Assembly (NCBI RefSeq): GCF_003416765.1
Contig: NZ_QSNG01000001.1
Coordinates: forward strand, 1 to 64,000
DNA from: Paratractidigestivibacter faecalis
GTDB lineage: Bacteria; Actinomycetota; Coriobacteriia; Coriobacteriales; Atopobiaceae
Direction: 5' to 3'
DNA: 64,000 nt
The notes beneath the pieces are model-generated. The model did not search any database and had not been told where the DNA came from. It saw only the letters and a program-made list of their open reading frames with translations. Of this stretch, positions 15,470 through 58,484 are shown piece after piece (position 1 is the stretch's first letter; each line of letters opens with the position of its first letter). Both the position numbers and the translations under genes were made by a program.

Positions 15470-16297
15470 CTAGAGCTTCCAGTGCGAGATGACCTCCTCG
15501 CTGCGGTGGCCGCTGTTGATGGACGTGCCACGGTCGGTGAGGAAGTAGAGGATGAGGTCGTTTATGACGAGCTCGTGCAGGTGGGACGTTATGCCGAAGT
15601 CGCCGAGAAGCTCGTCCTGGTCGCCCGTGCACAGGATGCAGTCGGCAAGCGAGCCCGCCTCGCTCGTGGGGTCGTTGGTGATGAGAACGACTTTGATGCC
15701 CTGCTCGCGAGCGACGCGCATGGTCTCGAGGGAGACCGTCGACTGCCCCGTGTGGGTGAACACTATGAGGATGTCTCTGGGGTCGGCGATGACGAGGCTC
15801 CTGAGAACGTACTCGGTGCTCTCGGTCGTGAAGGTGTTGACGCCGCAGCGCGCCAGCCTGTGGGCGAGGTCGGCGGCGACCACGGAGCTGTTGCCCCAGC
15901 CGAAGACGAAGACGGTGCGGGCGTCGCGCAGCATGCCTATGGCCTGATGGACGGCATCGGAGTCGAGCGTCTTCGATATGGAGAGAATCCCCTCGTCCGT
16001 CCTGCGCAGGAACTCGACGATGTCGTTGGGCTCCTCGTCGGGGCCCTCGCTGGCTCGAGGTGCCTCCGGCTCGGCGCTCAGCTCCATGGCGAGGCTGATC
16101 TTGAGCTGGTGGAAGCCCGTCTCGCCAACGAGCTTGCACATCCTCATGACGGTGGCATCGGAGGTTTCGCTCGCCTCGGAGAGGCGGTTCATGCTCATGC
16201 GAACCACGCTTGAGGGCGAGGAGAGAATGTAGTCGGCGACGCGCTTCTCGGCGTCGGTCATGTCTTTGTAGCAGGTGCGTATGTTGTCGAGGACCAT
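15470..16297 (-). CDS. RpiR-family transcriptional regulator of the divergent sugar operon
   Basis: 275 aa. The N-terminal HTH_6 domain begins with the family pattern (YKDMTDAEKRVADYIL) followed by a helix-turn-helix near residues 30-60. A SIS sugar-phosphate-binding domain occupies about 110-245 (FVFGWGNSSVVAADLAHRL, ILIVFTHTGQS). RpiR proteins sense phosphorylated sugars. I chose the ATG at 16297 because gggagag precedes it by six bases; the frame is open back to 16447 but that part reads like promoter DNA. It is divergent from the PTS operon, and a palindrome 38 bases before its start has a near copy in the PTS promoter, so it very likely represses both. Confidence 0.9.
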   Translation of the reverse strand: MVLDNIRTCYKDMTDAEKRVADYILSSPSSVVRMSMNRLSEASETSDATVMRMCKLVGETGFHQLKISLAMELSAEPEAPRASEGPDEEPNDIVEFLRRTDEGILSISKTLDSDAVHQAIGMLRDARTVFVFGWGNSSVVAADLAHRLARCGVNTFTTESTEYVLRSLVIADPRDILIVFTHTGQSTVSLETMRVAREQGIKVVLITNDPTSEAGSLADCILCTGDQDELLGDFGITSHLHELVINDLILYFLTDRGTSINSGHRSEEVISHWKL

Positions 16298-16334: not shown

Positions 16335-16351
16335 TGAAGTATAACTTCAGC
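16335..16351. promoter_or_regulatory. Palindromic operator O1 upstream of rpiR
   Basis: CTGAAG-TATAA-CTTCAG, six-base arms around five bases, lies 38 bases upstream of the chosen rpiR start. On the minus strand it contains TATACT, a good -10 box, so binding would block rpiR transcription. A 14/17 match occurs at 16509-16525. Confidence 0.7.
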
Positions 16352-16491: not shown

Positions 16492-16525
16492 TTGACTACG
16501 GATGTTGGCTGAAGTAAAACTGCAC
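16492..16525 (+). promoter_or_regulatory. Promoter of the PTS operon with overlapping operator O2
   Basis: TTGACT (16492-16497), 17 bases, TAAAAC (16515-16520) form a sigma-70-type promoter about 50 bases before EIIA. The O2 sequence at 16509-16525 (ctgaagtaaaactgcac) matches O1 at 14 of 17 positions and covers the -10 box. Confidence 0.65.
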
Positions 16526-16571: not shown

Positions 16572-17012
16572 ATGGGGGAGAGAAGGGTGCTCCTGGCATC
16601 CCACGGTCATCTGGCGAGCGGCCTGAAGAGCTCGCTGCAGATCCTTACGGGAGACGCCTCGGCGGTCACCGCGATTGACGCATACGTTGACGAGACAGAC
16701 TTCGTGCCGACCATCGAGGAGTTTCTCGCCGCGTCCGAGGAGGGCGACGAGACCATCGTCTTCACCGACCTGCTCGGCGGCAGCGTGTTCCAGAAGGTGA
16801 GCGTACTTCTGGCGAGCCACCCGGGCGTCATCCACGTCACCGGCATGAACCTGGCCGTGGTCATCGGCTGCTTGCTCTCTGACGAGCCCCTGACCCCCGA
16901 GGTGGTGGACGGGGTCGTGGCGATGGCCTCCGATGCTCTTGAGCGCGTCGAGATTCCCGGTGCCGACCCCGCGAACGAGGGCGATGCCGCGGACGACGAC
17001 TTCTTTGCTTAG
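16572..17012 (+). CDS. PTS mannose-family EIIA component
   Basis: 146 aa, cytoplasmic. The N-terminal VLLASHGHLASGL places the phosphorylatable His at residue 11, as in ManX-type EIIA. The motif FTDLLGGSVFQKV and the family length (about 140 aa) agree. It takes the phosphate from HPr and passes it to EIIB. First gene of the operon, behind a good promoter; the ATG at 16572 follows aaaggggacggc. The C-terminus is acidic and lacks the EIIB domain found fused in Escherichia coli ManX. Confidence 0.93.
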   Translation: MGERRVLLASHGHLASGLKSSLQILTGDASAVTAIDAYVDETDFVPTIEEFLAASEEGDETIVFTDLLGGSVFQKVSVLLASHPGVIHVTGMNLAVVIGCLLSDEPLTPEVVDGVVAMASDALERVEIPGADPANEGDAADDDFFA

Positions 17013-17086
17013 CCGACTGCGTTTGGGCCGCACTGGCGGCCTTGGGAAGAAGCGATGCCGCGAGGGCGGCAGAAGGGAAACCAGCC

Positions 17087-17584
17087 ATGATCATCCAGAT
17101 TCGCGTTGACGACAGGCTCATTCACGGCCAGGTGGCCATCCTCTGGTCCAAGGAGCTCAACAGCAAGGGCCTTTTGGTTGCCAACGACAGGGCCGCATCC
17201 AACCCCACCATCTCCGCGACGCTCAAGATGGCTTGCCCCAGCTCCCAGAAGCTGCTCATCAAGTCCGTCGACGACGCCATCAGGATTGCCAAGGACCCGC
17301 GTGGCGGCTCCATGCGCATCTTCGCGCTTGTCGACTGCGTCGCCGATGCGCTGAAGATCGTCGAGGCGTGCCCGGAGGCCGTCGGCGAGGTCAACGTTGC
17401 CAACGTCGGCCGCTTTGACAACTCCGATCCCGCCCAGCAGGTCAACCTCATCAAGTCCGTGATGCTCAACCCTGACGAGCTCGAGGCCTGCCGCAAGCTC
17501 GTTGCAACCGGCGTCACGGTCATCCACCAGGTCACCCCGACTGACCGCAAAGTGTCCGTCGAGGACCTTCTCAAGACGCTCTAG
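17087..17584 (+). CDS. PTS mannose/fructose/sorbose-family EIIB component
   Basis: 165 aa. The signature VDDRLIHGQVAILW carries the phosphorylated His at residue 13 in the usual place. It transfers phosphate to the incoming sugar at EIIC/EIID. The start at 17087 (aagggaaaccagcc upstream) gives the normal family N-terminus; the frame continues 15 codons further upstream without resemblance to the family. It lies 74 bases after EIIA in the same operon. Confidence 0.93.
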   Translation: MIIQIRVDDRLIHGQVAILWSKELNSKGLLVANDRAASNPTISATLKMACPSSQKLLIKSVDDAIRIAKDPRGGSMRIFALVDCVADALKIVEACPEAVGEVNVANVGRFDNSDPAQQVNLIKSVMLNPDELEACRKLVATGVTVIHQVTPTDRKVSVEDLLKTL

Positions 17585-17645
17585 GGAGATCCGGAGCTCC
17601 CTGGCACGTATCAAGAACGCAACAAGGAACGGAGGGTATCAAGAA

Positions 17646-18446
17646 ATGCTGTACACAGCGACAATGGCTCTTCTCGCCGCATTCGTGGCCAAGTGGAGCA
17701 ACAACCTGCTGGGCCAGGCGCTGACCGAGCGCCCGCTCGTTGCAGGCCTCATCGCCGGCCTCTTCCTGGGCGACGTCCAGACGGGCGTGCTCGTCGGCGC
17801 CGCGCTGGAGGCCGTCTTCCTCGGAATGGTGGACGTGGGCGGATCCGTTACCGCCGAGCCCGTTACCGCAACGGTCCTGGCGGTGGCCTTTGTCTCCACC
17901 ATGGGCATGGAGCAGGGCACCGCGGTCGCCCTGGCCGTCCCCATCGGCCTGCTCGGCGGCCTGGTCTACTCGGTCATCCACCTCTCTATCTCTTCCCTGG
18001 CCGCCCCCCTCATCGAGAAGGCCGCTGCCACGGGTGATCCGAAGAAGGTCAACCTCGTCTGGTTTGTCGGCGGCGGCATCAAGCACTTCATCGTTGCCGT
18101 TCCGACCTTCCTGGGCGTCCTGCTTGGCGCCGAGCCCATGAGCGTCGTCATGAACCAGATTCCCGACCAGGTCATCGCCGGCCTTACCGCAAGCGGAAGC
18201 CTGCTTCCCGCTGTTGGCATGGCAATGCTCATGAAGATGCTCTGGAACAACAAGATTGCCATCTACTGGTTCCTGGGCTTCATCCTGGTTGCCTACATGG
18301 GCCTTGGCACCGTCGGCGTTGCCGCGTTTGGCGCCGTCATCGTGACCCTGGTGGTCATGAACGACCTGGATGCCATGAAGAAGGAGAAGGCCTCGATCGC
18401 CGCTGGCACCGTGGCCGCTGACGAGGAGGAGGACTTCTTCGCATGA
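17646..18446 (+). CDS. PTS mannose-family EIIC permease
   Basis: 266 aa, strongly hydrophobic with about seven or eight membrane segments. The segment AGLIAGLFLGDVQTGVLVGA is characteristic of the EIIC-Man/Sor family. Together with EIID it forms the sugar channel. The ATG at 17646 has GGAGGG at 17631-17636; the long upstream extension of the frame overlaps EIIB and is not used. The stop overlaps the EIID start (ATGA). Confidence 0.93.
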   Translation: MLYTATMALLAAFVAKWSNNLLGQALTERPLVAGLIAGLFLGDVQTGVLVGAALEAVFLGMVDVGGSVTAEPVTATVLAVAFVSTMGMEQGTAVALAVPIGLLGGLVYSVIHLSISSLAAPLIEKAAATGDPKKVNLVWFVGGGIKHFIVAVPTFLGVLLGAEPMSVVMNQIPDQVIAGLTASGSLLPAVGMAMLMKMLWNNKIAIYWFLGFILVAYMGLGTVGVAAFGAVIVTLVVMNDLDAMKKEKASIAAGTVAADEEEDFFA

Positions 18447-19321
18447 GTGACGAGAAGACCCTGGCCACCAAGCCGGAAAGCGACGTGAAGATCAACCTCA
18501 GCACCAAGGACCTGCCCGCTGAGGACCGCAAGATGCTCAAGAGCATGTTCCTGCGCACCAACTGTCTCTATGCCCTGTGGGCGGGCCAGGCCCAGGCGGC
18601 GGCCGGCGGCATGCTCTTCACCATGGAGCCCGCGCTCAACCGCTATTACGCCGACCAGAAGAAGCGCGCCGAGGCCATGAGCCGCTACACCTCCTGGTAC
18701 AACATCACCCTGAACGTGCACCCCGTCGTCTCCGGCATCTGCGCCGCCATGGAGCGCGACGCCGCCGAGGACGAGAACTTCGACGTGAGCAACATCCAGG
18801 CCGTCAAGGCGTCCCTCATGGGACCCCTGTCCGGCGTCGGCGACGCCTTCTTCTGGGGCGTCTTGCGCATCATCGCCGCCGGCATCGGCATTGGCCTGGC
18901 CGCCACCGGCAGCCCCTTGGGCGCCATTGCCTTCCTGCTGATCTACAACATTCCCTCTTGGATCGTGCGCTGGGGCTGCCAGGTCCTGGGCTTCAAGCTC
19001 GGTACCTCCTTCATCTCGAAGGTCTCTGAGTCCGGTCTGATGGGCGTGGTCACCAAGGCCGCCGGCATCCTCGGCCTGCTCATGATCGGAGCCATGACGG
19101 CGTCGAACGTGGCCTTCAACGTGGCCCTGACCATTCCGGTCGCGGGCTCTGACCCCATCATGGTCCAGACCTACCTCGACGCGATGTTCAAGGGGCTCAT
19201 CCCCATGCTCATCACGCTCGGCTGCTTCAAGCTCCTGAAGAAGAACGTCAATGTCCTGTGGATCATCCTGGGCATCATGGCGCTTGGCCTGGTCTGCGGC
19301 CTGTTTGGCATCGTCGCCTAG
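18443..19321 (+). CDS. PTS mannose-family EIID component
   Basis: 292 aa. The N-terminal LKSMFLRTNCLYALWAGQ block, the FTMEPALNRYY motif, the central MGPLSGVGDAFFWG signature and C-terminal membrane helices are those of the EIID-Man family. It acts in the membrane with EIIC. It overlaps EIIC by four bases, so translational coupling is likely. After it comes a 131-base gap with a large hairpin before the enzyme genes. Confidence 0.94.
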   Translation: MSDEKTLATKPESDVKINLSTKDLPAEDRKMLKSMFLRTNCLYALWAGQAQAAAGGMLFTMEPALNRYYADQKKRAEAMSRYTSWYNITLNVHPVVSGICAAMERDAAEDENFDVSNIQAVKASLMGPLSGVGDAFFWGVLRIIAAGIGIGLAATGSPLGAIAFLLIYNIPSWIVRWGCQVLGFKLGTSFISKVSESGLMGVVTKAAGILGLLMIGAMTASNVAFNVALTIPVAGSDPIMVQTYLDAMFKGLIPMLITLGCFKLLKKNVNVLWIILGIMALGLVCGLFGIVA

Positions 19322-19362
19322 CAAACGTTCAGACGCCTTTTTCCAATCGGTTCAAAAGCAAC

Positions 19363-19429
19363 GGACGGCATGGCCATGCGCTCGGCGCGATGGCTGGCGA
19401 AAGCCTTGGCAAAAACGGCCGTGCCGTCC
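19363..19429 (+). promoter_or_regulatory. Large stem-loop between the PTS genes and the enzyme genes
   Basis: A 13 bp stem (ggacggcatggcc with ggccgtgccgtcc, one G-U pair) closes a 41-base loop. It could be a processing or attenuation element that sets different mRNA levels for transporter and enzymes. No T-run follows, so it is not a clear terminator. Confidence 0.45.
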
Positions 19430-19452
19430 GCTGCGCGCAAAAGGAGGAGAGC

Positions 19453-20100
19453 ATGGCAGACAAGAAGTTCCAGGTCGCCCTGGACCTCTTTACCATCGAG
19501 GACGCAATGAGGATCCTCGAGCAGGTTGGCGAGTACGTCGACATCATCGAGGTGGGCACCCCGCTCATGGTTGCCGAGGGCGCCCGCGCCGTCCGCACCA
19601 TCAAGGACGCCTATCCCACCAAGACCGTCTTTGCCGACATCAAGGTCATGGACGGCGGCGGCGAGGTTCCCAAGTCGTGCATCCAGGCCGGCTGCGACAT
19701 GTTCAGCGTCCTGTGCGCCTCCGATGACGCCACCCTTCGCGCCGCCATCGAGCTTGCCCACGCGAACGACGTCATGGTCCTTGCGGACATGTGCAACGTC
19801 AAGAACATGGAGGAGCGCGCCGCTCAGGTTGCCCCCATGGGTCCGGACTACCTCTGCTGCCACGTTGGCTTTGACCGCCAGGCCACCGGCGCCGACCCCG
19901 TCGAGGAGCTGAAGCGCCTCTCTGGCGTCTCCACCCCCAAGGCCATTGCCGGCGGCATCAAGCTCTCCACCTTCAAGGCTGCCGTCGAGAGCGAGGCACA
20001 GGACATCATCTCCGGCGGCGCCATCTTCAACGCCGAGAAGCCCGGCGAGGTCGCGCGCCAGATGCGCGAGATTCTCGACGCCTACAACGCAAGCCACTAG
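19453..20100 (+). CDS. 3-hexulose-6-phosphate synthase-like aldolase (OMPDC superfamily)
   Basis: 215 aa. FQVALDL, EYVDIIEVGTPL, FADIKVMDGG and CCHVGFDRQA align with HPS of the ribulose monophosphate pathway, and Asp11, Glu33, Asp62, Lys64 and Asp67 sit at the catalytic positions of the superfamily. HPS condenses formaldehyde with ribulose 5-phosphate to 3-hexulose 6-phosphate, reversibly. The related keto-gulonate-phosphate decarboxylases (UlaD) are the alternative, but the motif wording fits HPS better. The ATG at 19453 follows AAGGAGGA. The isomerase partner gene is next, as in hxlAB. In a PTS operon the cleavage direction seems more likely than formaldehyde fixation. Confidence 0.85.
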   Translation: MADKKFQVALDLFTIEDAMRILEQVGEYVDIIEVGTPLMVAEGARAVRTIKDAYPTKTVFADIKVMDGGGEVPKSCIQAGCDMFSVLCASDDATLRAAIELAHANDVMVLADMCNVKNMEERAAQVAPMGPDYLCCHVGFDRQATGADPVEELKRLSGVSTPKAIAGGIKLSTFKAAVESEAQDIISGGAIFNAEKPGEVARQMREILDAYNASH

Positions 20101-20110
20101 GAGGTCGAAC

Positions 20111-20689
20111 ATGAGCGAGTCAACGGAGATGGCGGTCAACCAGATCGCCGCGCTGGGAGCGCGTCAGCTGGCCGGCATCCTCGAGGGCGTGAGCGGGGAG
20201 AGGCTCCAGGAGCTCATCGCCCTCATCGATGAGGCGCCGCACGTGTACTGCTGCGCCGCGGGAAGGTCGCTGCTCATGATGAGGTGCATGGCCATGAGGC
20301 TCATGCACATGGGGTACGCGAGCTACGTGGTGGGGGACACCACGACGCCGGCGTTCCACGAGGGCGACCTGCTGATTTGCGCCTCTGGCTCCGGTACCAC
20401 CTCCTGTGTCCTCAACGTGGCGAGAAAGGCCCGCGACCTCGGCGGCCGCGTCGCCTGCATCACCATCTCCGAGGACTCGCCCCTGGCCGAGCTCAGCGAC
20501 GTCGTCGTCAGCGTCCCCACCTTCACGGACAAGGGCGACTTCGACGCCAGCGAGCGCACGGTCATGGCCGGCGGCTCCAGCTTCGAGCACGCCGTCCTTC
20601 TCCTCTCTGACGCCATGGTCGTTCCTATGGCCGCCGCAAGGGGCTTTGACATCAACAAGGGCTTCCCGCTTCACGCGAATCTTGAGTAA
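20111..20689 (+). CDS. 6-phospho-3-hexuloisomerase-like SIS-domain protein
   Basis: 192 aa, one SIS domain. VYCCAAGRSLLMMRCMAMRLMHMG matches the PHI signature (xGxGRS...AMRLMHLG), with LLICASGSGTTSCV as the second sugar-phosphate-binding loop. PHI interconverts 3-hexulose 6-phosphate and fructose 6-phosphate. It follows the HPS-like gene by 10 bases with gaggtc as ribosome site, the usual hxlA-hxlB order. The terminal FPLHANLE also resembles PHI C-termini. Confidence 0.86.
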   Translation: MSESTEMAVNQIAALGARQLAGILEGVSGERLQELIALIDEAPHVYCCAAGRSLLMMRCMAMRLMHMGYASYVVGDTTTPAFHEGDLLICASGSGTTSCVLNVARKARDLGGRVACITISEDSPLAELSDVVVSVPTFTDKGDFDASERTVMAGGSSFEHAVLLLSDAMVVPMAAARGFDINKGFPLHANLE

Positions 20690-20700
20690 AGGGGCGTTTG

Positions 20701-21702
20701 ATGAGCAAGATCATGAACGAGGCTTCCGGCTTCGTCGACCAGAGCCTCGCCGGCATCGTGGCCGCCAACCCGAACGACCTCGCACTTTGCGAGACCTCCC
20801 GACGCAGCGTGGTGCGCGCCGGCCAGGCCAAGGGCGACGGCAAGGTCGCCATCGTGACCGGTGGCGGCTACGGGCACCTTCCGGTGTTTCTGGGCTACGT
20901 GGGCCAGGGCATGTGCGATGGCTGCGCCGTGGGCAACGTCTTCACCTCCCCGAGTGCCGAGGCCATCGTCGAGTGTGCCAGGCAGGCCGACCGCGGCGCG
21001 GGCGTCCTGTTCCTCTTTGGCAACTACATGGGCGACTCCATGAACTTCGACATGGCCTCCGAGCTGCTTGAGTTTGACGACATCCAGACGCGCGTGGTCA
21101 AGTGCTCCGACGACGTCGCCTCCCTCCCGCGCGAGCGCTGGCAGGAGCGCCGCGGCGTGAGCGGCATCTTCTTCGCCTACAAGCTCGTGGGCGCCTACGT
21201 GGAGCAGGGCCACTCCCTGGACGAGGTCGCCGACTTCGCCCGTCGCGTGACCGAGAACGTCTCCACCTTCGGCTTTGCGACGAGCTCCTGCCAGATTCCC
21301 GGCGAGAAGACCACGGTCTTCCAGATCGGCGAGGACGAGACCGAGCTCGGCATGGGCATCCACGGCGAGCCCGGCGTCGAGCGCGCCGGCAAGATGACCT
21401 CCGCCGAGCTTGCCGCCTACCTTGTTCCGAGGCTCGTCGCTGACCAGGGGCTTGCCGCTGGCGACAAGATTGCCGTGCTCGTCAACTCACTCGGAGCCAC
21501 GTGCGAGGAGGAGCTCTACGTCCTCTATGCCGACGTAAAGCAGCTGCTTGACCAGGCCGGCATTGACGTGAGCCGCGTCTTCGTGGGGCGCTACGGCACC
21601 TCGATGGAGATGGCCGGCGCATCGCTCTCCTTCCTCAAGATGGAGGACGACTTCTCCGAGTATCTGAACGCGCCCGCCTCCACGCCCTTCATGCGGTTCT
21701 AG
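20701..21702 (+). CDS. DhaK-like kinase subunit with altered active-site motifs
   Basis: 333 aa, the DhaK fold. His221 in MGIHGEPG is the residue that binds dihydroxyacetone covalently in known DhaK. The other signatures are unusual: canonical GGGSGHEP reads GGGYGHLP (54-61) and canonical KNYTGD reads GNYMGD (107-112), so the catalytic His is kept but Glu and the substrate-contacting Lys are replaced. This suggests a related triose or tetrose substrate rather than dihydroxyacetone itself. The DhaL-like subunit follows; no DhaM is present, so ATP is the likely donor. Start ATG 20701, 11 bases after the isomerase. Confidence 0.85.
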   Translation: MSKIMNEASGFVDQSLAGIVAANPNDLALCETSRRSVVRAGQAKGDGKVAIVTGGGYGHLPVFLGYVGQGMCDGCAVGNVFTSPSAEAIVECARQADRGAGVLFLFGNYMGDSMNFDMASELLEFDDIQTRVVKCSDDVASLPRERWQERRGVSGIFFAYKLVGAYVEQGHSLDEVADFARRVTENVSTFGFATSSCQIPGEKTTVFQIGEDETELGMGIHGEPGVERAGKMTSAELAAYLVPRLVADQGLAAGDKIAVLVNSLGATCEEELYVLYADVKQLLDQAGIDVSRVFVGRYGTSMEMAGASLSFLKMEDDFSEYLNAPASTPFMRF

Positions 21703-21748
21703 GAAGCTGCGGGCTCTGGGGAACACCTGGTGATAAGGAGATAACAGC

Positions 21749-22366
21749 ATGTCCTATGGCATCAATGACGCAAAGGCCCTCATCGCCCGCGTCAGCGACA
21801 TCATCGAGGCTCACAAGGACGAGCTCAACGAGCTGGACGGCCGTTCCGGCGACGGCGATCTGGGAATGAGCGTCGCGCTTGGCCTGGCGGCGACCAAGGC
21901 CTCCGCAGAGGCCTTCGAGGGCGACGACATGGGCAAGATGCTTGCCATGGCCGCCATGGCTTGCAACCGCGAGGCTCCCTCCACGATGGGAACCCTCGTC
22001 TCCAGCGGCATCATGGCCGTGGGCAAGGCGTTCAAGGGCAAGAACGAGGTCGAGAAGGCCGACGTCGTCGCCATCCCCAGGACCTTCGCTGACGCCATCG
22101 CCGCCCGCGGCGGCGCCAAGCTGGGCGACAAGACCATCCTGGACGCCCTCTATCCCATGGCGGACGTCCTCGAGGAGCGCGTCGCCGCAGGTGACGAGCT
22201 TGGCGTTGCGATGGGTGCCGCCGCTGCCAAGGCCCGCGAGGCCGCCGAGGCCACCTCTGGCATCCAGGCCTCGGTCGGCCGCGCCAAGTGGCTTGGCGAG
22301 CGCGCCGCGGCAAATCCTGACGGCGGGGCCATCCTGTGCGCCGTCGTGGCCGAGGGGCTGGCCTAG
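21749..22366 (+). CDS. DhaL-like ATP/ADP-binding kinase subunit
   Basis: 205 aa. The Mg-nucleotide site LDGRSGDGDLGMSVALG (Asp30, Asp35, Asp37) corresponds to GDGDHG of DhaL, and GDKTILDALYPM matches the second DhaL signature. It is a helical-barrel subunit that supplies the phosphate to the substrate bound by the preceding DhaK-like protein. taaggag lies before the ATG at 21749. Its stop codon shares one base with the next start (TAGTG). Confidence 0.87.
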   Translation: MSYGINDAKALIARVSDIIEAHKDELNELDGRSGDGDLGMSVALGLAATKASAEAFEGDDMGKMLAMAAMACNREAPSTMGTLVSSGIMAVGKAFKGKNEVEKADVVAIPRTFADAIAARGGAKLGDKTILDALYPMADVLEERVAAGDELGVAMGAAAAKAREAAEATSGIQASVGRAKWLGERAAANPDGGAILCAVVAEGLA

Positions 22367-23274
22367 TGGCCGCTTCGGCCAAGTCGAGCCAGCTCTACGC
22401 CAAGGAGCTGGGGCCTGATTGCATCGCCTGCCTGTGCAGGCAGTATCTGAGCGCAGCGCCTGGGGACGCCCCCTGGGAGCTGCGCTCCGCGTATATGCGC
22501 CGGGCGCTCTCGGCCATATCCGAGGGCTCTCGCGAGCTGACTGCGCCGGAAATCGGCCACAAGCTAGACGGCCTCCTGAGGGAGCAATTTGGGGTCGAGG
22601 AGGACCGAACAGAGGAGAAGCTCCGGCTGAACGAGCTCGTCATGGGCTGGGAGGACGACCTTTGGCGCAAGGTGGTGGCCGCGAAAGACCCCGTAGCCCT
22701 GGCTGCCCGTCTTGCCGCCTGCGGCAATTACGTCGACTTCAGCGTCCAAGAGAGCGTCGAGGAGGACGTGCTGGCCCGCTTTCTCGAGAGGGCTGGCGCC
22801 GACGAGGGGCAAGGCGACCCCTTCTCGGCGCTCTCGGAGGCTCTTCTCGAGGCCAGAAGCGCGGTGCTTCTTGCCGACAACTGCGGCGAGGTCGTGCTGG
22901 ACAAGATGCTGCTGAGGGCGGTCAAGAGGTCGAACCCAGTGTGTGAGGCCACGGTCATCGTGCGAGACGGGCGGGTCTCCGGCGACGTCACCCTTGCGGA
23001 CGCCGCGCAGGTGGGGTTGGGCGAGGTGGCTCGCGTGGTCTCAAACGGCAATGACGTGGCGGGGACGTGCGAGAGGCTTCTCTCGGGCGAGGCTCGCCAG
23101 GTGCTGGTCGCGACGGACGTCGTGGTCTCGAAGGGACTCGCCAACTTCGAGACGCTTCGTGGCCGGCGGGTGGGCAACGCGAGGACCTTCTTCCTTTTCA
23201 TGGTCAAGTGCGAGCTCTACGCGCGAGAGTTCGGTGCGAGCCTGGGTGACGTCATGGCCGTACGGGGAGTGTGA
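22366..23274 (+). CDS. DUF89-family protein, probable metal-dependent sugar-phosphate phosphatase
   Basis: 302 aa. The N-terminal CIACLCRQ (CxxCxxQ type), ADNCGEVVLDKMLL, KGLANFETL and FFLFMVKCELYAREFG blocks are those of DUF89 subfamily I. Some DUF89 proteins dephosphorylate harmful sugar phosphates such as fructose 1-phosphate ('damage control'). As last gene of a sugar operon it may remove a side product of the kinase or aldolase. The start is GTG 22366, overlapping the DhaL stop by one base with gagggg upstream; the frame extends 10 codons further with no family resemblance. Confidence 0.82.
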   Translation: MAASAKSSQLYAKELGPDCIACLCRQYLSAAPGDAPWELRSAYMRRALSAISEGSRELTAPEIGHKLDGLLREQFGVEEDRTEEKLRLNELVMGWEDDLWRKVVAAKDPVALAARLAACGNYVDFSVQESVEEDVLARFLERAGADEGQGDPFSALSEALLEARSAVLLADNCGEVVLDKMLLRAVKRSNPVCEATVIVRDGRVSGDVTLADAAQVGLGEVARVVSNGNDVAGTCERLLSGEARQVLVATDVVVSKGLANFETLRGRRVGNARTFFLFMVKCELYAREFGASLGDVMAVRGV

Positions 23275-23396: not shown

Positions 23397-26159
23397 ATGG
23401 GAAGAAGCGTCACCAGGCGAGAAGCGCTCGCGCTTGCGGGGCTCGGTGCCATTGCGGGAGCGGCCGGCTGCAGCGCCGGCGAGCCCGCCACAGACGAGAA
23501 GGACGGGGCCACCGAGGTGGCCTCCATCGAGGAGATTGGCGACACCTCCGGGTGGGACGCCTCCTTCTACCAGCCTGCGTACGCGAGCGTGGAGGAGGCG
23601 CGCGTCGCTGCCGAGGCCGTTGCCGAGGAGGTCGAGGCGGGCGGCATCGTGCTGCTGCGCAACGAGGGCGGCACGCTGCCACTGGCCTCGGGGGCGCGCG
23701 TCTCGCTTCTGGGGCGCGGCGCGGCGGACCCCGTCTACGACGGCACGGGTGCGGCGTTCATTGACCTCACGCACGCCGTCGACCTGCGCAGCGCATGCGT
23801 GGCGGCCGGGCTTTCCGTCAACGATGCGGCCTTTGACTTCCTGGCGGCGGAGGCGCCCAACCGCCCGCGCGCGGCCATCGGCACGCTCGACGCGCCGGAG
23901 ACCGTCTCGTACTACCTCGGCGAGATTCCCTGGTCGGCATACCCGCAGGACGTGCGCCAGAGCATGGAGGGCACCGTCGGCGTGGTGGTGATCGGCCGTC
24001 CCTCGGGCGAGGGCGCCGACCTCAGCCAGGACCTGCTGGGCAGCCTTGAGTCGGGGGTCTCGCAGACCTTCCTGCCCAACGACGAGACGACAAACTACGT
24101 GCCGGGCCAGCACCAGCTCGAGCTCTGCGCGGAGGAGCTGGAGCTTCTGGCCGAGGTCAAGGCCCGCTGCCAGAAGCTCGTGGTGCTGCTCAACGTGGCC
24201 ACCACCATGGAGGTGGGGCCCCTCGTGGAGCCGGGCGGCCCGTGCGAGGCGGACGCCATCCTGGAGATTGGCTTTCCGGGCGAGAGTGGCCTCTGTGCCG
24301 TGGCGCGCGCCCTTGCTGGCGAGGTCAACCCCTCTGGGCGCACGTGCGACCTGTGGGCGGCCGACCTCTCGGCCACGCCGAGCTTCAACAACTTTGGCGA
24401 CAACACCTACACGGACGTGACCGACTACTACACCTCAATTGGCTCGGGCGCCCACTTTGTGGAGTACGCCGAGGGCATCTACGTTGGCTACCGCTACTAC
24501 GAGACCGCGGCGGCAGAGGCCGCGGCGGGCAACTACCCGGGCTTTGACTACGACGCGGCGGTGACCTTCCCGTTTGGCTTCGGCCTCTCGTACACGAGCT
24601 TCAAGAGGGAGCTCCTGGACGTGACGCACGAGGGGGAGGACCTTCTCGCCAAGGTGCGCGTGACCAACGAGGGCCAGGTCGCGGGCCGTGACGTGGCCGA
24701 GCTCTATGCCACGGCGCCCGCGAGGCAGGGCGTGGAGAAGAGCGCGGCCGTCCTGGTGGCGTTTGCCAAGACCGACGAGCTGGAGCCCGGCGAGGCGGCC
24801 GAGCTGGAGCTGCGCTGCTGCGAGCGCGACCTTGCCAGCTGGGACGTGTCTGCCGGCTGCTGGGTGCTTGACGCGGGAAGCTACGCCATCAGCCTGAGGA
24901 GCGACTCCCACACCGTCATCGACCAGCGCGAGCTCTCCCTTGGCGAGAAGCGCTTCCAGACGGACTCCGCCACGGGCAATCCCGTCAAGAACCGCTTTGA
25001 CGACGTGACGGACTACATGGACGCCTACGTCACGCAGCTGAGTCGCGCCGACTTTGCGGGCACCTTCCCGGCGCCGGCGCGGGACAAGACGGCTGCCTCG
25101 GTGGGCCTTGTGCTCAAGGAGTACGACGTCGCGGAGCACGTAGACCCCTCCGACGAGATGCCCCTCACGCGCGAGAAGAACGGCATCAGCCTCTCTGACC
25201 TGCGCGGACGTCCCATGGACGACCCGCTGTGGGAGAAGCTGCTGGACCAGCTCGGCACCAACGTGATGACCATCATCCTGAACAACCATAACCACGGCAC
25301 CGACTCCGTTGACTCGGTGGGCAAGCCCAGGACCTTTGAGGGCGATGGCCCGGCGGGCATTGGCATCTTCGTCGACGATGGCGGGCACTGCGGGTTCCCG
25401 AGCGAGTATGCCGTGGCGCAGAGCTGGGACCGCGACCTCGTGCGCAGGATGGGCGAGGCCATGGCCGACGAGATGCTGGTCACGGGCATGAACGGCTGGC
25501 ACGCGCCGGCCATGAACACGCACCGCAGCCCCTTTGGCGGACGCGACTTCGAGTACTACTCGGAGGACCCGCTGCTTGCCGGCGCGCTGGGCACGGCCAT
25601 GGTAGAGGCGGTCTTCTCGCGCGGGATCTACGCGCAGATGAAGCACTTCTGCCTGAACGACCAGGACACCAACCGCAGCGCGCACCTGCTGACGTGGGCA
25701 AGCGAGCAGGCCATCAGGGAGATTTACGCCAGGCCCTTTGAGATCGTGGTCAAGAACGCCCGGGGCAGCATCGACTACCTGGACGACCAGACGGGCGAGC
25801 GCAAGACCCGTGGCATGAGCGCCGCCATCGCGGTGATGAGCTCCTACAACTACGTTGGCTCCACGTGGGCCGGCGGCAGCAAGGCGCTCTGCACGGAGTT
25901 GCTGCGCGACGAGTGGGGCTTTGAGGGGCACGTGGTGTCCGACTGGTCGCTCTACGACTACACCAACAAGAACCAGGCGTTCTACGCGGGGACCGACGTC
26001 AACCTCACTACCACGCTGACGACGGGCCAGATGCAGGATGCGGAGAGCGCCACGGCGGTCAAGGCCATGAGGCGCTGCATGCACCACTACCTGTACTCCA
26101 TTGCCAACTCCAACGCCATGAACGGCAAGCCGCCCACCGTCCGCGTGACGTACAGGTAG
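23397..26159 (+). CDS. Glycoside hydrolase family 3 with swapped domain order, Tat lipoprotein
   Basis: 920 aa. The N-terminus has a twin-arginine signal (SVTRREALALAGL) and a lipobox (GAAGC), so it is an exported lipoprotein. The usual GH3 order is reversed: the GH3_C-like domain (GGIVLLRNEGGTLPL, about 75-340) comes first, then a fibronectin-III-like domain (FPFGFGLSYTSF, about 390-510), then the catalytic barrel. The barrel shows the KHF motif (MKHFCLNDQ) and the nucleophile Asp in HVVSDWS. Likely a beta-glucosidase or related exo-enzyme. ATG 23397 follows aaggagg. It lies 122 bases after the sugar operon and may feed it. Confidence 0.9.
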   Translation: MGRSVTRREALALAGLGAIAGAAGCSAGEPATDEKDGATEVASIEEIGDTSGWDASFYQPAYASVEEARVAAEAVAEEVEAGGIVLLRNEGGTLPLASGARVSLLGRGAADPVYDGTGAAFIDLTHAVDLRSACVAAGLSVNDAAFDFLAAEAPNRPRAAIGTLDAPETVSYYLGEIPWSAYPQDVRQSMEGTVGVVVIGRPSGEGADLSQDLLGSLESGVSQTFLPNDETTNYVPGQHQLELCAEELELLAEVKARCQKLVVLLNVATTMEVGPLVEPGGPCEADAILEIGFPGESGLCAVARALAGEVNPSGRTCDLWAADLSATPSFNNFGDNTYTDVTDYYTSIGSGAHFVEYAEGIYVGYRYYETAAAEAAAGNYPGFDYDAAVTFPFGFGLSYTSFKRELLDVTHEGEDLLAKVRVTNEGQVAGRDVAELYATAPARQGVEKSAAVLVAFAKTDELEPGEAAELELRCCERDLASWDVSAGCWVLDAGSYAISLRSDSHTVIDQRELSLGEKRFQTDSATGNPVKNRFDDVTDYMDAYVTQLSRADFAGTFPAPARDKTAASVGLVLKEYDVAEHVDPSDEMPLTREKNGISLSDLRGRPMDDPLWEKLLDQLGTNVMTIILNNHNHGTDSVDSVGKPRTFEGDGPAGIGIFVDDGGHCGFPSEYAVAQSWDRDLVRRMGEAMADEMLVTGMNGWHAPAMNTHRSPFGGRDFEYYSEDPLLAGALGTAMVEAVFSRGIYAQMKHFCLNDQDTNRSAHLLTWASEQAIREIYARPFEIVVKNARGSIDYLDDQTGERKTRGMSAAIAVMSSYNYVGSTWAGGSKALCTELLRDEWGFEGHVVSDWSLYDYTNKNQAFYAGTDVNLTTTLTTGQMQDAESATAVKAMRRCMHHYLYSIANSNAMNGKPPTVRVTYR

Positions 26160-26166
26160 CAACGCC

Positions 26167-26205
26167 GCCCGGCGAGAAGCACGCACTTCTCGCCGGGCGC
26201 TTTTT
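26167..26205 (+). terminator. Rho-independent terminator after the GH3 gene
   Basis: A perfect 13 bp stem (gcccggcgagaag / cttctcgccgggc) with loop cacgca, then gcttttt. The stem contains the recurrent 9-mer GGCGAGAAG on both arms. Confidence 0.92.
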
Positions 26206-26320: not shown

Positions 26321-27331
26321 ATGCTGTTTGACGTCTGGGGTTCCAACACCCTCACGCACTGGCTCGGCTGGGCCATGGTCTTTGTGGGGCTCATCGTCCT
26401 CAACGAGGTCGGCCGCAGGACCAAGGTCGGCGCGGCCATCATCTTTGGCGTGGCCCCGCTTGCCATGACCATCTACTGCGCCGCCATTGCCTTTGGCGTG
26501 GCCAACGGCCAGGAGTGGGCGCTCACCAACCCCACCCACATCTACCAGAACAGCTGGTTCCACTACGCCAAGGTGTACGCGGCGCTGGCCGGCTGCTGGG
26601 GCTTCATCGCCATCAAGTACCAGTGGGGCAAGATCGGCAAGGCCCGCTGGTTCCGCGCCTACCCGTTCCTCATCGTGGCCATCAACATCATGATCGCCGT
26701 CGTCTCCGACTTTGAGAGCGCCTACCACTTCTTTGCCCTGGGCGAGACCACGTGGGTGACCTCCGAGGGCGCCATTCAGCTCGCTGGCTGGAACAACGTG
26801 TTCAACGGCATTGCCGGCATCATCAACATCTTCTGCATGACCGGCTGGTGGAGCGTCTACGCCTCCGAGGACCAGAGCGACATGCTGTGGCCCGACATGA
26901 CCTGGGTCTACATCATTGCCTATGACATCTGGAACTTCTGCTACACCTACAACTGCCTGCCCACCCACTCCTGGTTCTGCGGCTTTGCCCTGCTGCTGGC
27001 CCCGACCGTGGCGGCCTTCTGCTGGAACAAGGGCGGCTGGATTCAGAACCGCGCCTTCACGCTGGCCATCTGGTGCATGTTTGCCCAGGTCTTCCCGTAC
27101 TTCCAGGAGGAGAGCATCTTTGTGACGCACTCCACCCTCAACCCCACGTCCGCTCTCGTGGTCTCCATCCTGGCCCTGGTGGCAAACGTGGCCGCGATCG
27201 TCTTCATTGCCTACCGCGCCAAGAAGCTCGGCCGCAACCCCTACAAGCAGGACGTCTTCGAGGGAACCAGCGACTGGGAGAAGGCAACCGCCCGCCGCTC
27301 CAAGATCGACTACGCCACCCAGGAGCAGTAA
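26321..27331 (+). CDS. Polytopic membrane protein of unknown function (DUF5692-like)
   Basis: 336 aa with about nine or ten membrane segments rich in Trp, Tyr and Phe and a cytoplasmic basic tail. I recall this as a DUF5692-type family of anaerobic gut bacteria but have no function for it. The abundance of aromatic residues in helices (for example WVYIIAYDIWNFCYTYNCLP) is striking. The ATG at 26321 follows aaggagagag. It has its own promoter, an operator-like palindrome and its own terminator, so it is a single-gene unit. Confidence 0.75.
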   Translation: MLFDVWGSNTLTHWLGWAMVFVGLIVLNEVGRRTKVGAAIIFGVAPLAMTIYCAAIAFGVANGQEWALTNPTHIYQNSWFHYAKVYAALAGCWGFIAIKYQWGKIGKARWFRAYPFLIVAINIMIAVVSDFESAYHFFALGETTWVTSEGAIQLAGWNNVFNGIAGIINIFCMTGWWSVYASEDQSDMLWPDMTWVYIIAYDIWNFCYTYNCLPTHSWFCGFALLLAPTVAAFCWNKGGWIQNRAFTLAIWCMFAQVFPYFQEESIFVTHSTLNPTSALVVSILALVANVAAIVFIAYRAKKLGRNPYKQDVFEGTSDWEKATARRSKIDYATQEQ

Positions 27332-49532: not shown

Positions 49533-50971
49533 GGGGGTGCGGACGAAAAGTTGGACGCCGACAGGCGTCCGGATTGGAGCCCGCAATGTACTCGAGCGAC
49601 GAGAGGGACGCCATCCTGGGGCTCTGGCGCGAGTCCGGCCGGCCGGCCCACAGGTTCGCCAGGGAGTCGGGGCTCGCCTCCGCCGAGTCGATCAGGCGCT
49701 GGGCGTCCGGCGACCTGGGCGTCGGCTGGCACGCCCCCTATACTCTTGCCCAGAGGGCCGACGCCGCGCGCAGGGCGCTCGCCGGGGAGGACCCCGCCGA
49801 GGTCGCCGCGTCGATCGGCTGCCACCCGGAGACCGTGCGCGGCTGGGCCCGCGCCGCGGGGAGGGAGGGCGAGGTGTCGCTCGCGAACGGACGGGGCGCC
49901 CCGCGCGTGCCGCCGCCGGCCGACCCCGGGGACCTGGAGGCCCTCAGGGCCGAGAACCGGGCCCTGAGGCTGGAGCTCGCCAGGGCCGAGGCGGTGTTGG
50001 ACGTCCTAAAAGGAGGCGGCCCGGGGCGGGGCCCGGACTCGCTGACGGCGGCGGAGAGGGCGCTGGTCGCCGACGCCCTTAGGCCCGGGTTCGGCCTGGA
50101 GGACGCCCTGCGCGCGGCCGGCGTGGCGCGCAGCACCTACTACTACCACCGCGCCCGCAGGGGCGCCCCCGACCGCCTGGCCGCCCTGAGGGCGCGGGTG
50201 CGCGCCCTGTTCGAGGCCGGGGGCGGGGCCTGGGGCTACCGCACGATATGGGCGAGGCTGCGCCTGGACCCCGACGAGCCCCTGGCGGTCTCCGAGAAGG
50301 TCGTGAGGCGCGTCATGCGCGAGGAGGGGCTCGAGGTGCGCTACCTGAGGCGCCGCAGGCGCTGGAGCAGCTATGCCGGCGAGGTCTCCGAGGCCCCTCC
50401 CAACCTGCCGCTGCGCCCCGACGGCACCCACGACTTCTCCGCCTCGCGCCCCAACGAGCTGTGGGTCACCGACGTCACCATGTTCACGATAGGGTCGGGG
50501 CGCTGCTGGCTGTCGCCGGTGGTCGACTGCTTCGACGGGGCGGTCGTGGCGTGGACCCTGTCGGAGTCCCCCGACGCCCGCATGGCCGACTCGATGCTGG
50601 AGGCGGCGGCCTCGACGCTCGCGGCCGGCGAGCGGCCCGTGGTCCACACCGACCGCGGCTGCCACTACAGGTGGCCGGGCTGGGCGGCGATATGCGAGCG
50701 CCACGGCCTGGTGCGCAGCATGTCGAGGAAGGGCCGCAGCCCCGACAACGCCGCGGCCGAGGGCTTCTTCGGCCGGCTCAAGCAGGAGTTCTACCACGGC
50801 AGGGACTGGTCCGGGGTGGGCTTCGAGGAGTTCCGGCGGCGCCTGGCGGGCTACCTCGCCTACTACAACTCGGGCAGGATCAAGCGGAGCCTGGGGTGGA
50901 GGAGCCCGGAGCAGTACCGCAGGGACCTGGGGTACTCTCTCCGTAGTGTCTAAGAAATTGTCCGCACCCCC
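49533..50971 (+). mobile_element. IS3-family insertion sequence
   Basis: About 1.44 kb. The ends are inverted: GGGGGTGCGGAC at 49533-49544 with GTCCGCACCCCC at 50960-50971, with partial matching beyond. A 3 bp direct repeat TCC (49530-49532, 50972-50974) flanks it, consistent with IS3-type duplication. It encodes one full-length transposase. Its third-position G/C is even higher than the neighbours'. Confidence 0.85.
49586..50953 (+). CDS. IS3-family transposase, single continuous frame
   Basis: 455 aa. The N-terminal part has two helix-turn-helix segments (about 10-35 and 55-85, AASIGCHPETVRGWAR) and a Leu-rich coiled stretch near 120-140. The C-terminal integrase core shows the DDE residues: WVTDVTMF, HTDRGCHY and DNAAAEGFFGRLK, and ends YYNSGRIKRSLGWRSPEQYR. 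IS3 elements usually use two overlapping frames with -1 shifting; here both are fused, with a remnant taaaagg near 50008. The start ATG at 49586 follows ttggag. The gene looks intact. Confidence 0.92.
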   Translation: MYSSDERDAILGLWRESGRPAHRFARESGLASAESIRRWASGDLGVGWHAPYTLAQRADAARRALAGEDPAEVAASIGCHPETVRGWARAAGREGEVSLANGRGAPRVPPPADPGDLEALRAENRALRLELARAEAVLDVLKGGGPGRGPDSLTAAERALVADALRPGFGLEDALRAAGVARSTYYYHRARRGAPDRLAALRARVRALFEAGGGAWGYRTIWARLRLDPDEPLAVSEKVVRRVMREEGLEVRYLRRRRRWSSYAGEVSEAPPNLPLRPDGTHDFSASRPNELWVTDVTMFTIGSGRCWLSPVVDCFDGAVVAWTLSESPDARMADSMLEAAASTLAAGERPVVHTDRGCHYRWPGWAAICERHGLVRSMSRKGRSPDNAAAEGFFGRLKQEFYHGRDWSGVGFEEFRRRLAGYLAYYNSGRIKRSLGWRSPEQYRRDLGYSLRSV

Positions 50972-53539: not shown

Positions 53540-54817
53540 ATGTTTGAGGCAGACCTGCCGTTTGACCACAAAACCATGCATCTCAAGCTGGAGGACAAGA
53601 ACTTCGCCGGCCTGATGGAAGGCCACCAGAACGAGTTCAAGCCCGAGGCGAGCCAGGAGGAGCTCGTCGAGAAGTCCCTGGACAACCCCTATGGCTCTCC
53701 CAAGCTCGAGGAGCTCTGCCGCGGCAAGCGCGACATCGTCATCATCAGCTCCGACCACACGCGCCCCGTTCCCTCCCGTGTGACCATGCCCATCCTGCTC
53801 CGCCGCATCCACGCCGCCGCGCCCGAGGCTCGCGTGCGCATCCTCGTGGCAACCGGCATGCACCGTCCCTCCACCCACGAGGAGCTCGTCAACAAGTACG
53901 GCGAGAAGATCGTGGCCGAGGAAGAGATCGTCATGCACGTGGCCACCGACGACTCCATGATGGAGAAGGTCGGGACCCTGCCCTCCGGCGGCGAGTGCAT
54001 CATCAACAAGGTGGCCGCCGATGCGGACCTGCTGCTTGCCGAGGGCTTCATCGAGCCGCACTTCTTTGCCGGCTTCTCTGGCAGCCGCAAGTCCGTCCTG
54101 CCTGGCATCGCCAGCTACAAGACGATCATGTACAACCACAACGGCCAGTTCGTGAACGACTCCCACTCCCGTGCCGGCAACCTCTGCCACAACCACGTCA
54201 ACGAGGACATGTTCGCCGCCGCCGAGATGGCGCATCTCGCCTTCGTGCTCAACGTGGTCCTGAACGGCAAGCACGAGGTCATTGGCTCCTTTGCCGGTGA
54301 CATCCACAAGGCCCACGAGGCCGGCTGCGACTTCGTGCGCAAGCTCGCCGGCGTCGAGCCCGTGGAGTGCGACGTGGCCATCACCACCAACGGTGGCTAC
54401 CCGCTCGACCAGAACATCTACCAGGCCGTCAAGGGCATGTGCGCGGCCGAGGCCACGCTGCCCGAGGGTGGCGTGATCATCGACGTCGCCGGCTGCGCTG
54501 ACGGCCATGGCGGCGAGGGCTTCTACAAGAACATCGCCGAGAACGACCCGGCCGAGTTCGAGCGCGCCTGCATCGAGCGCCCGAAGGACGAGACCCTGCC
54601 CGACCAGTGGACGAGCCAGATCCTCGCTCGCATCCTGGCCCACCACCCGGTGATCATGGTCACGGACCTCTGCGATCACCAGATGCTGCGTGACATGCAC
54701 ATGACGCCGGTCAACACCATTGACGAGGCCCTCGAGCTGGCCTTCAAGATGAAGGGTGCCGACGCCAAGGTGGCCGTCATCCCCGACGGCCTGGGCGTCG
54801 TCGTGGCCCAGCACTAG
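53540..54817 (+). CDS. larA: Nickel-dependent lactate racemase LarA
   Basis: 425 aa. Interconverts D- and L-lactate using the nickel-pincer nucleotide. Arg75 (DHTRP), His108 (GMHRP), His174 (EPHFFAG), Lys184 (GSRKS) and His200 (YNH) fall at the same numbers as in the Lactobacillus plantarum enzyme, where Lys184 holds the cofactor and His200 the nickel; this also supports the ATG at 53540 over GTG 53528. The channel gene follows, and larE-larB-larC for cofactor synthesis lie downstream on the other strand. Alternative family members act on other 2-hydroxy acids, so the substrate is likely but not certain. Confidence 0.92.
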   Translation: MFEADLPFDHKTMHLKLEDKNFAGLMEGHQNEFKPEASQEELVEKSLDNPYGSPKLEELCRGKRDIVIISSDHTRPVPSRVTMPILLRRIHAAAPEARVRILVATGMHRPSTHEELVNKYGEKIVAEEEIVMHVATDDSMMEKVGTLPSGGECIINKVAADADLLLAEGFIEPHFFAGFSGSRKSVLPGIASYKTIMYNHNGQFVNDSHSRAGNLCHNHVNEDMFAAAEMAHLAFVLNVVLNGKHEVIGSFAGDIHKAHEAGCDFVRKLAGVEPVECDVAITTNGGYPLDQNIYQAVKGMCAAEATLPEGGVIIDVAGCADGHGGEGFYKNIAENDPAEFERACIERPKDETLPDQWTSQILARILAHHPVIMVTDLCDHQMLRDMHMTPVNTIDEALELAFKMKGADAKVAVIPDGLGVVVAQH

Positions 54818-54915
54818 GGCTCTCTGGCGCGTCGGCATGTGGTGTGCGGCCGCGCACCTGTGCCGGCGCGCCTTGCCGTTAAATAATCGTTGCAACTACC
54901 TAAGGAGTTTTACGC

Positions 54916-55662
54916 GTGGCTAGCTTTGACCTTCTCTACCACATGCTGTGCGAGTTTGGCAGCACGGCGCTCATGATCATCTTCGGCGTGGGCGTTCACT
55001 GCGACACCGTCCTCAAGGGTGCCAAGTACCAGGGCTCCGGCCACATGTTCGCAATCACCACCTGGTCCTTTGGCATCTCGGTGGCCCTGTTCATCTTTGG
55101 CGGTGCCGTCTGCATGAACCCGGCCATGGTCCTGGCCCAGTGCATCGTGGGCCTGGTGCCCTGGTCCTCCTGCATCCCGTACATGGTCGCTGACATGCTC
55201 GGCGGCTTTGCGGGAGCTGTCGTTGCGTGGTTCATGTACGCCGACGAGTTCCGCGCGTCCGAGGGCGTGGTCGACCCCATCGCTCAGCGCAACATCTTCT
55301 CGACCAACCCCACCGAGGGCTTGCAGAACCTCCCGCGCGACTTCTTCTGCGAGGCCATCTGCACCTTCGTCTTCATCAGCGCGATTCTGGCCGCGGCCAG
55401 CCGCGCGGGTGAGAACGTCCTCATGCTGGCCATCTGCGTGGGCCTCATCGTCTGGGCCGTCGGCATGGGCATGGGCGGCATCACCGGCTTTGCCATGAAC
55501 CAGGCCCGTGACCTCGGCCCGCGCTTTGCCTACCAGGTGCTTCCCATCAAGGACAAGGCCGACAACAACTGGAAGTACGGCCTGCTGGTTCCTGGTCTGG
55601 CCCCGTTTGTGGGCGCCGTCCTGGCCGCGCTCTTCGTTCACGGCTTCCTGGGCCTGTTCTAG
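54916..55662 (+). CDS. LarD-like aquaporin-family channel
   Basis: 248 aa with six membrane helices and two half-helix motifs of the MIP family: CMNPAM in the first loop and FAMNQARDLGPR in the second, where canonical NPA has become NQA. Beside larA it is probably the lactate channel LarD; glycerol facilitator is the alternative. The start is GTG 54916 behind TAAGGAG at 54901-54907. A terminator follows. Confidence 0.86.
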   Translation: MASFDLLYHMLCEFGSTALMIIFGVGVHCDTVLKGAKYQGSGHMFAITTWSFGISVALFIFGGAVCMNPAMVLAQCIVGLVPWSSCIPYMVADMLGGFAGAVVAWFMYADEFRASEGVVDPIAQRNIFSTNPTEGLQNLPRDFFCEAICTFVFISAILAAASRAGENVLMLAICVGLIVWAVGMGMGGITGFAMNQARDLGPRFAYQVLPIKDKADNNWKYGLLVPGLAPFVGAVLAALFVHGFLGLF

Positions 55663-55700
55663 GCCACAGCCCAACCATCCGCTGTTCAGAGAGCTGGCAA

Positions 55701-55740
55701 GGGCCGGGCGGCGAGTCTTTTGAGGCTCGCCGCCCGGCCC
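55701..55740. terminator. Bidirectional terminator between larD-like and tetR genes
   Basis: A perfect 15 bp stem (gggccgggcggcgag / ctcgccgcccggccc) with a 10-base loop, followed by ttcttg. Confidence 0.88.
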
Positions 55741-55761
55741 TTCTTGCGTTTCTCCGCGCAC

Positions 55762-56301
55762 CTACTCAAACAGCGGCTTGGTGGCGCGCAGAAAGTCCTC
55801 CGCCAGCTCCTGGGGCATGGAGGCAAAGTCGCTCCAGGCCCACCACTGGACCATGCCCACGAAGGTGGCTGCGATGTGGTGCAGAAGGAAGCTTCGGTTC
55901 ATCTGGCCCGCCTGCCCCGTGGGTTCCTCGGGCACCGTCCGCGCGGCGCGAGAGACTATGGCGTGGCGCAGGCAGTCGGCAAACCGCCTTGACCCGGCGC
56001 CCTTGACCAGGGCCTTTACTCCCTCGCGACGGTCCCAGAGGTTCTGGAGGACCTGCTCGAGCTGCTGCTCCGGGCCAAGGTCGGAGCCGTCGTCCACCCT
56101 GAGGGCGCAGGTGCAAAGTCCGCTCACCAGCTCGGCGAGAAGGTCGTCCTTGCCCTTGAACTGGGCATAGAAGGTGGCGCGACCCACTCCGGACCGGGCG
56201 AGGATGTCCGCCACGGTGATCTTGGCGTAGTCCCGCTCAAGAAGCAGCTCGGAGAAGGCCTGTTCTACGGCAAGGCGGCTGCGGCGCTTGCGGGCGTCCA
56301 T
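55762..56301 (-). CDS. TetR-family regulator, last gene of the larEBC operon
   Basis: 179 aa. The N-terminal helix-turn-helix (ITVADILARSGVGRATFYAQFKGKDDLLAEL) is a textbook TetR pattern; the ligand domain is divergent, with a C-terminal helix rich in Trp (VQWWAWSDF). Its ATG shares one base with the larC stop (TGATG), so it is co-made with the cofactor genes and may regulate lar or nickel uptake. Confidence 0.9.
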   Translation of the reverse strand: MDARKRRSRLAVEQAFSELLLERDYAKITVADILARSGVGRATFYAQFKGKDDLLAELVSGLCTCALRVDDGSDLGPEQQLEQVLQNLWDRREGVKALVKGAGSRRFADCLRHAIVSRAARTVPEEPTGQAGQMNRSFLLHHIAATFVGMVQWWAWSDFASMPQELAEDFLRATKPLFE

Positions 56302-57701: not shown

Positions 57702-57710
57702 ATGGTCTCC

Positions 57711-58481: not shown

Positions 58482-58484
58482 GGC

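Follow-up and report, generated by a model that had tools for sequence, protein, structure and literature searches.

The 64,000-nucleotide stretch of Paratractidigestivibacter faecalis DNA analysed here (the window) carries an operon that joins a mannose-family phosphotransferase system (PTS) to 3-hexulose-6-phosphate synthase (HPS), 6-phospho-3-hexuloisomerase (PHI), a DhaK/DhaL-like kinase and a DUF89 protein. The operon is real, partly explained and assembled from known parts. All nine genes named in an earlier sequence-only reading of positions 16572-23274 were found on the plus strand in the order it gave, and their Pfam/NCBIfam assignments agree. RpiR, HPS and PHI are orthologous to those of sugar-transport clusters in other genomes, with which the operon has an operator-like motif in common. 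The most probable interpretation, which we hold tentatively, is a substrate-inducible sugar-use operon that would convert a hexose phosphate into ribulose 5-phosphate and formaldehyde and use DhaKL to recover a small hydroxycarbonyl.

We infer that the glycoside hydrolase family 3 (GH3) lipoprotein would release a sugar outside the cell, to be taken in and phosphorylated by the PTS. PHI would isomerise a ketohexose 6-phosphate (fructose 6-phosphate or its C3 epimer) to 3-hexulose 6-phosphate, and HPS would split the latter into ribulose 5-phosphate and formaldehyde, thus supplying pentose phosphate to transketolase and phosphoketolase in a genome without glucose-6-phosphate dehydrogenase (G6PDH). 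Formaldehyde could most simply be taken up by transketolase acting as dihydroxyacetone (DHA) synthase, converting xylulose 5-phosphate and formaldehyde to glyceraldehyde 3-phosphate and DHA; DHA synthase is itself a transketolase (PMC8879981). The DhaK/DhaL variant would phosphorylate a small hydroxycarbonyl (DHA, glyceraldehyde or similar), DUF89 may clear dead-end sugar phosphates, and RpiR may sense one of the phosphates.

Evidence for a sugar-linked role comes from the regulator. In Olsenella, Lachnospiraceae and Chloroflexota genomes, RpiR, HPS and PHI repeatedly occur together as a sugar-transport regulon with one common operator, and the window likewise has an orthologous RpiR, the common operator and a linked transporter. 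The window RpiR is sister to the RpiR proteins of the HPS/PHI clusters L072 and L073, from two genomes of the same family (tree support 100/99), and far from the RpiR proteins that accompany other PTS operons of the class. The palindrome TGAAGTATAACTTCA upstream of the operon gave rise to the search pattern TGAAGTWWWACTTCA, which at up to two mismatches found 17 sites in ten upstream regions, where 0.05 were expected; 15 of the 17 lie outside the window. Control loci totalling 367 kb gave one site. The two best matches in the whole host genome both precede this operon. A third match lies close to an ArsR-like gene, at C1:1801964; it was judged to be chance because a reversed control pattern also yields two sites. 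Weaker operator-like sites with three mismatches precede the PHI2-transketolase genes of L073.

The closest HPS relatives (53-65%) come from Fusibacillus kribbianus, Lachnospiraceae, Clostridiales, Streptococcaceae and Anaerolineaceae assemblies and from two genomes of the same family. They form a clade carrying Cys114 and Val138 that is monophyletic against other HPS (100/99) in a tree that did not include the two same-family sequences. Next to most of them are an RpiR gene and a sugar transporter of the ATP-binding cassette (ABC) or PTS type rather than methanol genes, and a cupin phosphoglucose isomerase (PGI, PF06560) precedes HPS-PHI in almost all of them; unlike these clusters, the host genome yielded no cupin PGI. 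Sugar kinases are also among the neighbours. Cluster L076 has a D-psicose 3-epimerase (365 bits, cut-off 300) with tagatose-type genes, L077 an allose kinase (258 bits, cut-off 253) with an Rpe/AlsE-like epimerase, and L081 an ADP-dependent phosphofructokinase (PFK)/glucokinase. The Olsenella cluster L073 carries a split transketolase (TktN/TktC) and a second PHI beside HPS/PHI, and two PHI homologues occur in some related clusters. Judged by these transporters, epimerases and sugar kinases, the related loci are sugar-use clusters, and the linkage of three genes in many other genomes means that the grouping of HPS, PHI and RpiR is not due to chance. The sugar-linked catabolic setting outside methylotrophy proposed from the sequence alone is supported. 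A transketolase near HPS in Fusibacillus (L079) was considered as support and set aside as weak; its sequence identity to the host's housekeeping transketolase is 68%, and a long pyruvate:ferredoxin-oxidoreductase-like gene separates it from HPS.

HPS passed the TIGR03128 HxlA cut-off narrowly (206 bits, cut-off 200) and PHI passed TIGR03127 HxlB with 183.6 bits (cut-off 160). In alignments PHI has the HANLE carboxy terminus, and HPS keeps catalytic Asp11, Glu33, Asp62, Lys64, Asp67 and His. Relative to E. coli UlaD, HPS lacks Arg137, Arg139 and Arg192 and has Asp for Glu112, Phe at 139 and Ala for Thr169; the replacement of Glu112, Arg139 and Thr169 ruled out identity as 3-keto-L-gulonate-6-phosphate decarboxylase (KGPDC). 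An aromatic residue at UlaD position 139 was dropped as a sign of altered chemistry, Priestia (Bacillus-type) HPS having Tyr there. A confident AlphaFold model of HPS (pLDDT 88) has HPS and KGPDC as its nearest structures, and the best folds include the triple mutant of KGPDC in crystals with ribulose or xylulose 5-phosphate. Since the discriminating residues are those of ordinary HPS, formaldehyde is the likeliest small product on alignment evidence, the suggestion that this aldolase must have a non-textbook substrate is not supported, and the operon looks less exotic than first thought.

The kinase diverges from the textbook form. DhaK scored 361 bits against PF02733 Dak1, and both subunits fell below the equivalog cut-offs (dhaK1, 330 against 406; dha_L, 108 against 138). 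In E. coli DhaK, His218 is the covalent residue, His56 and Asp109 are catalytic and Lys104 contacts DHA. By alignment the window DhaK keeps His56, Asp109 and His218, and DhaL keeps the Asp30/35/37 triad with PSTMG replacing GGASG. Lys104 is replaced by Gly in the window DhaK and in all seven relatives aligned, and Glu57 by Leu in the window DhaK and its relatives from Coriobacteriia and Proteobacteria (Tyr in one). As the sequence-only reading had suggested, this is not a standard DHA kinase: these two residues are changed, and the pair lies below every DHA-kinase equivalog cut-off. DhaK relatives in the class sit in galactitol-type PTS operons with FucA-type aldolases; among 12 annotated plasmid neighbourhoods, a sample biased towards such replicons, an aldolase of HpaI or DHDPS type was present in five and a thiamine diphosphate (TPP) enzyme annotated as acetolactate synthase in two. 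Because DhaK relatives repeatedly adjoin aldolases or TPP enzymes, this context suits a putative kinase that acts on a small hydroxycarbonyl released when a carbon-carbon bond is cleaved. It fits the idea that the kinase activates the cleaved-off carbonyl, formaldehyde itself being excluded as a kinase substrate. The possibility that EIIA serves as DhaM was rejected, as it matches AgaF/EIIA-man. Separately, Olsenella-family genomes (L062, L065, L147 and related) have a conserved operon with a galactitol-type PTS, a FucA-type aldolase and DhaK-DhaL-DhaKL; both kinases of the L062 operon lack Lys104.

All four mannose-family PTS domains (IIA-IID) scored above their Pfam cut-offs, no equivalog cut-off was reached in the profile search, and a plasmid search returned only Mpt/sigma-54 type operons. 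A widespread Coriobacteriia operon (L137-L145) places a class II aldolase beside a mannose-family PTS, sometimes with an aldo/keto reductase; a ketose phosphate may thus be processed there with no kinase involved. DUF89 matched PF01937 with 120 bits (cut-off 25), and a plasmid search found only distant homologues, the nearest full-length one being ~30% identical. Known DUF89 members (yeast Ymr027w, human ARMT1) act best on fructose 1-phosphate (PMC8669784).

Several observations weigh against the route from hexose phosphate to ribulose 5-phosphate and formaldehyde. Most seriously, HPS/PHI are accompanied by DhaKL and DUF89 in one genome only; neither was found in any of about ten related HPS/PHI clusters. 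Being absent from the conserved module, they may serve a side branch. The search for the cluster in other genomes that the sequence-only reading had proposed showed that RpiR-HPS-PHI with a transporter recurs; DhaKL and DUF89 were found beside it only here. A second genome of the same genus that we compared has no HPS, DhaK or DUF89. The PTS proteins closest to those of the window (EIIC up to 59%, EIIB up to 61%) adjoin class II ketose-bisphosphate-type aldolases, sometimes also aldo/keto reductases, and not HPS. The loss of Lys104 and Glu57, as read from the alignment, argues against plain DHA as the substrate. The host (2.1 Mb in 6 contigs, an Olsenella-family actinobacterium) has a phosphoketolase and one split transketolase, whose sole N-domain match lies away from the operon and looks housekeeping; the operon contains no dedicated DHA synthase. 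With two PFK matches in the genome, the route is not needed for glycolysis. A fuller version, in which fructose 6-phosphate derived from a PTS hexose is cleaved by HPS/PHI to ribulose 5-phosphate and formaldehyde, transketolase yields glyceraldehyde 3-phosphate and DHA and the DhaKL variant phosphorylates, we consider unlikely. If true, such formaldehyde-shuttled glycolysis would have the same net outcome as PFK and aldolase, yet could not proceed without free formaldehyde as an intermediate, and it would operate in a fermenter that shows no sign of methylotrophy.

The aldolase neighbours of the PTS and of DhaK (FucA, HpaI and DHDPS types) would fit a scheme in which one sugar is catabolised in two branches. 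A chromosomal class II aldolase would partly cleave the PTS product into a phosphate and a hydroxyaldehyde (e.g. glyceraldehyde) as substrate for DhaKL, a triose kinase, and HPS/PHI would only draw off pentose phosphate. We regard this as possible, though less probable than the favoured route; the operon has no such aldolase, and no search was made of the host's own aldolases. The D-psicose 3-epimerase, the allose kinase and the paired PHI homologues of related clusters might instead indicate that HPS/PHI act on an uncommon ketose phosphate epimeric at C3, namely allulose 6-phosphate derived from allose or allulose, and turn it into fructose 6-phosphate via the common 3-ketose, with formaldehyde release a side reaction. 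We think this quite unlikely: it would leave no clear role for HPS, and the window contains a single PHI and lacks any allose gene.

HPS and PHI might also run forward and fix metabolic formaldehyde into fructose 6-phosphate. Bacterial HxlAB usually act in this way (PMC8879981), and the ordinary HPS residues agree with it; the linked sugar transporters, the sugar-type RpiR control, the lack of any formaldehyde-producing or -sensing gene and the confinement of the operator to this operon speak against it, and we rank such removal as improbable, after the epimer route. Least probable of all appears an anabolic role, in which HPS/PHI supply pentose phosphate for a missing oxidative branch and their operon company is incidental. 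G6PDH was not found in the host genome, and some other family members keep HPS/PHI beside cupin PGI without a transporter, both in keeping with such a role; yet an HPS-like match occurs in only 39 of 398 genomes of the class, and biosynthetic genes would not ordinarily be expected beside a PTS and under RpiR control.

The features of the unit are collected in Table 1; gene starts were chosen by fit to Shine-Dalgarno sequences and families by Pfam/NCBIfam profiles. The divergent RpiR gene belongs to the unit, which is larger than first noted. DUF89 starts at 22366 (GTG) or at 22336 by Shine-Dalgarno fit. The GH3 gene begins 122 bp past DUF89. A strong Shine-Dalgarno sequence, AAGGAGG, precedes its ATG, and nothing resembling a terminator lies in the gap. 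Because a strong terminator-like hairpin comes directly after the GH3 gene, GH3 is probably an operon member, and the predicted transcription unit ends at 26159. The whole looks built from three sources, which would be aldolase operons for the PTS, the recurring regulon for RpiR, HPS and PHI, and a third source for DUF89 and the aldolase-linked kinase.

Table 1. Features of the operon and its flanks, in window coordinates.
Feature	Position	Strand	Evidence
RpiR-family regulator (HTH_6 + SIS), divergent	15470..16297	-	Pfam/NCBIfam, tree
Operator-like palindrome TGAAGTATAACTTCA, 0 mismatches	16335..16349	.	pattern scan
Second operator-like site TGAAGTAAAACTGCA, 1 mismatch, at likely promoter	16510..16524	.	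pattern scan
PTS EIIA, mannose family, SHGH histidine	16572..17012	+	PF03610 EIIA-man
PTS EIIB, sorbose type, RLIHGQ histidine	17087..17584	+	PF03830 PTSIIB_sorb
PTS EIIC	17646..18446	+	PF03609 EII-Sor
PTS EIID	18443..19321	+	PF03613 EIID-AGA
HPS (HxlA), transporter-linked clade	19453..20100	+	TIGR03128
PHI (HxlB)	20111..20689	+	TIGR03127
DhaK-like subunit, variant subfamily (Lys104 to Gly, Glu57 to Leu)	20701..21702	+	PF02733 Dak1
DhaL-like subunit, Asp triad kept, PSTMG for GGASG	21749..22366	+	PF02734 Dak2
DUF89/ARMT1-like metal-dependent phosphatase	22366..23274	+	PF01937
Secreted lipoprotein glycosidase, GH3 family, probable last operon gene	23397..26159	+	
Terminator-like hairpin, 14-bp stem + T run	26166..26199	+	

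Directly downstream of the terminator lies a DUF5692 membrane protein gene (26321-27331). A second GH3 glycosidase (L086:1-657), seen as a C-terminal part with a membrane anchor, resembles that of the operon. Elsewhere in the window are a transposase-like gene (49586-50953), with an identical 1368-bp copy in the genome (L156:4587-5954), and an apparent lactate racemase (lar) group (53540-59222) of LarA-, aquaporin-, LarC-, LarB- and LarE-like proteins, assigned by eye.

The sequence-only reading knew of no pathway with this gene set, and we matched none in the open-access full-text literature searched, which is weak evidence, subscription papers being outside the search. The operon suggests that anaerobes of gut and environmental origin contain an undescribed family of HPS/PHI regulons tied to sugar use, where annotation as formaldehyde assimilation is therefore probably misleading, and it flags a DhaK/DhaL subfamily without Lys104.

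Among known systems, ribulose monophosphate (RuMP) formaldehyde assimilation by HxlA/HxlB in Bacillus and methylotrophs has the same two enzyme families and HPS-type residues, whereas here HPS forms its own clade and the operon has a sugar PTS and RpiR in place of methanol or formaldehyde genes. As in the archaeal reverse RuMP pentose route, the host lacks G6PDH and HPS/PHI could run to ribulose 5-phosphate, but here they are tied to a regulator and transporter and are not housekeeping. Transketolase and a DhaKL-type kinase recall the xylulose monophosphate pathway of DHA synthase and DHA kinase; the operon differs in having no dedicated synthase, a kinase without Lys104 and the addition of HPS/PHI. 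The kinase resembles PTS DhaKLM and ATP-dependent DHA kinases in His56, Asp109, His218 and the DhaL Asp triad, and departs from them in Lys104 to Gly, Glu57 to Leu, sub-equivalog scores and the lack of DhaM in the operon. The layout, a PTS followed by an OMPDC-superfamily enzyme, is that of E. coli ulaABCDEF for L-ascorbate, but with HPS instead of KGPDC residues, another PTS family, and PHI and a kinase instead of epimerases. DUF89 belongs to the family of the yeast and human damage-control phosphatases Ymr027w and ARMT1, from which it is set apart as a bacterial, operon-linked protein.

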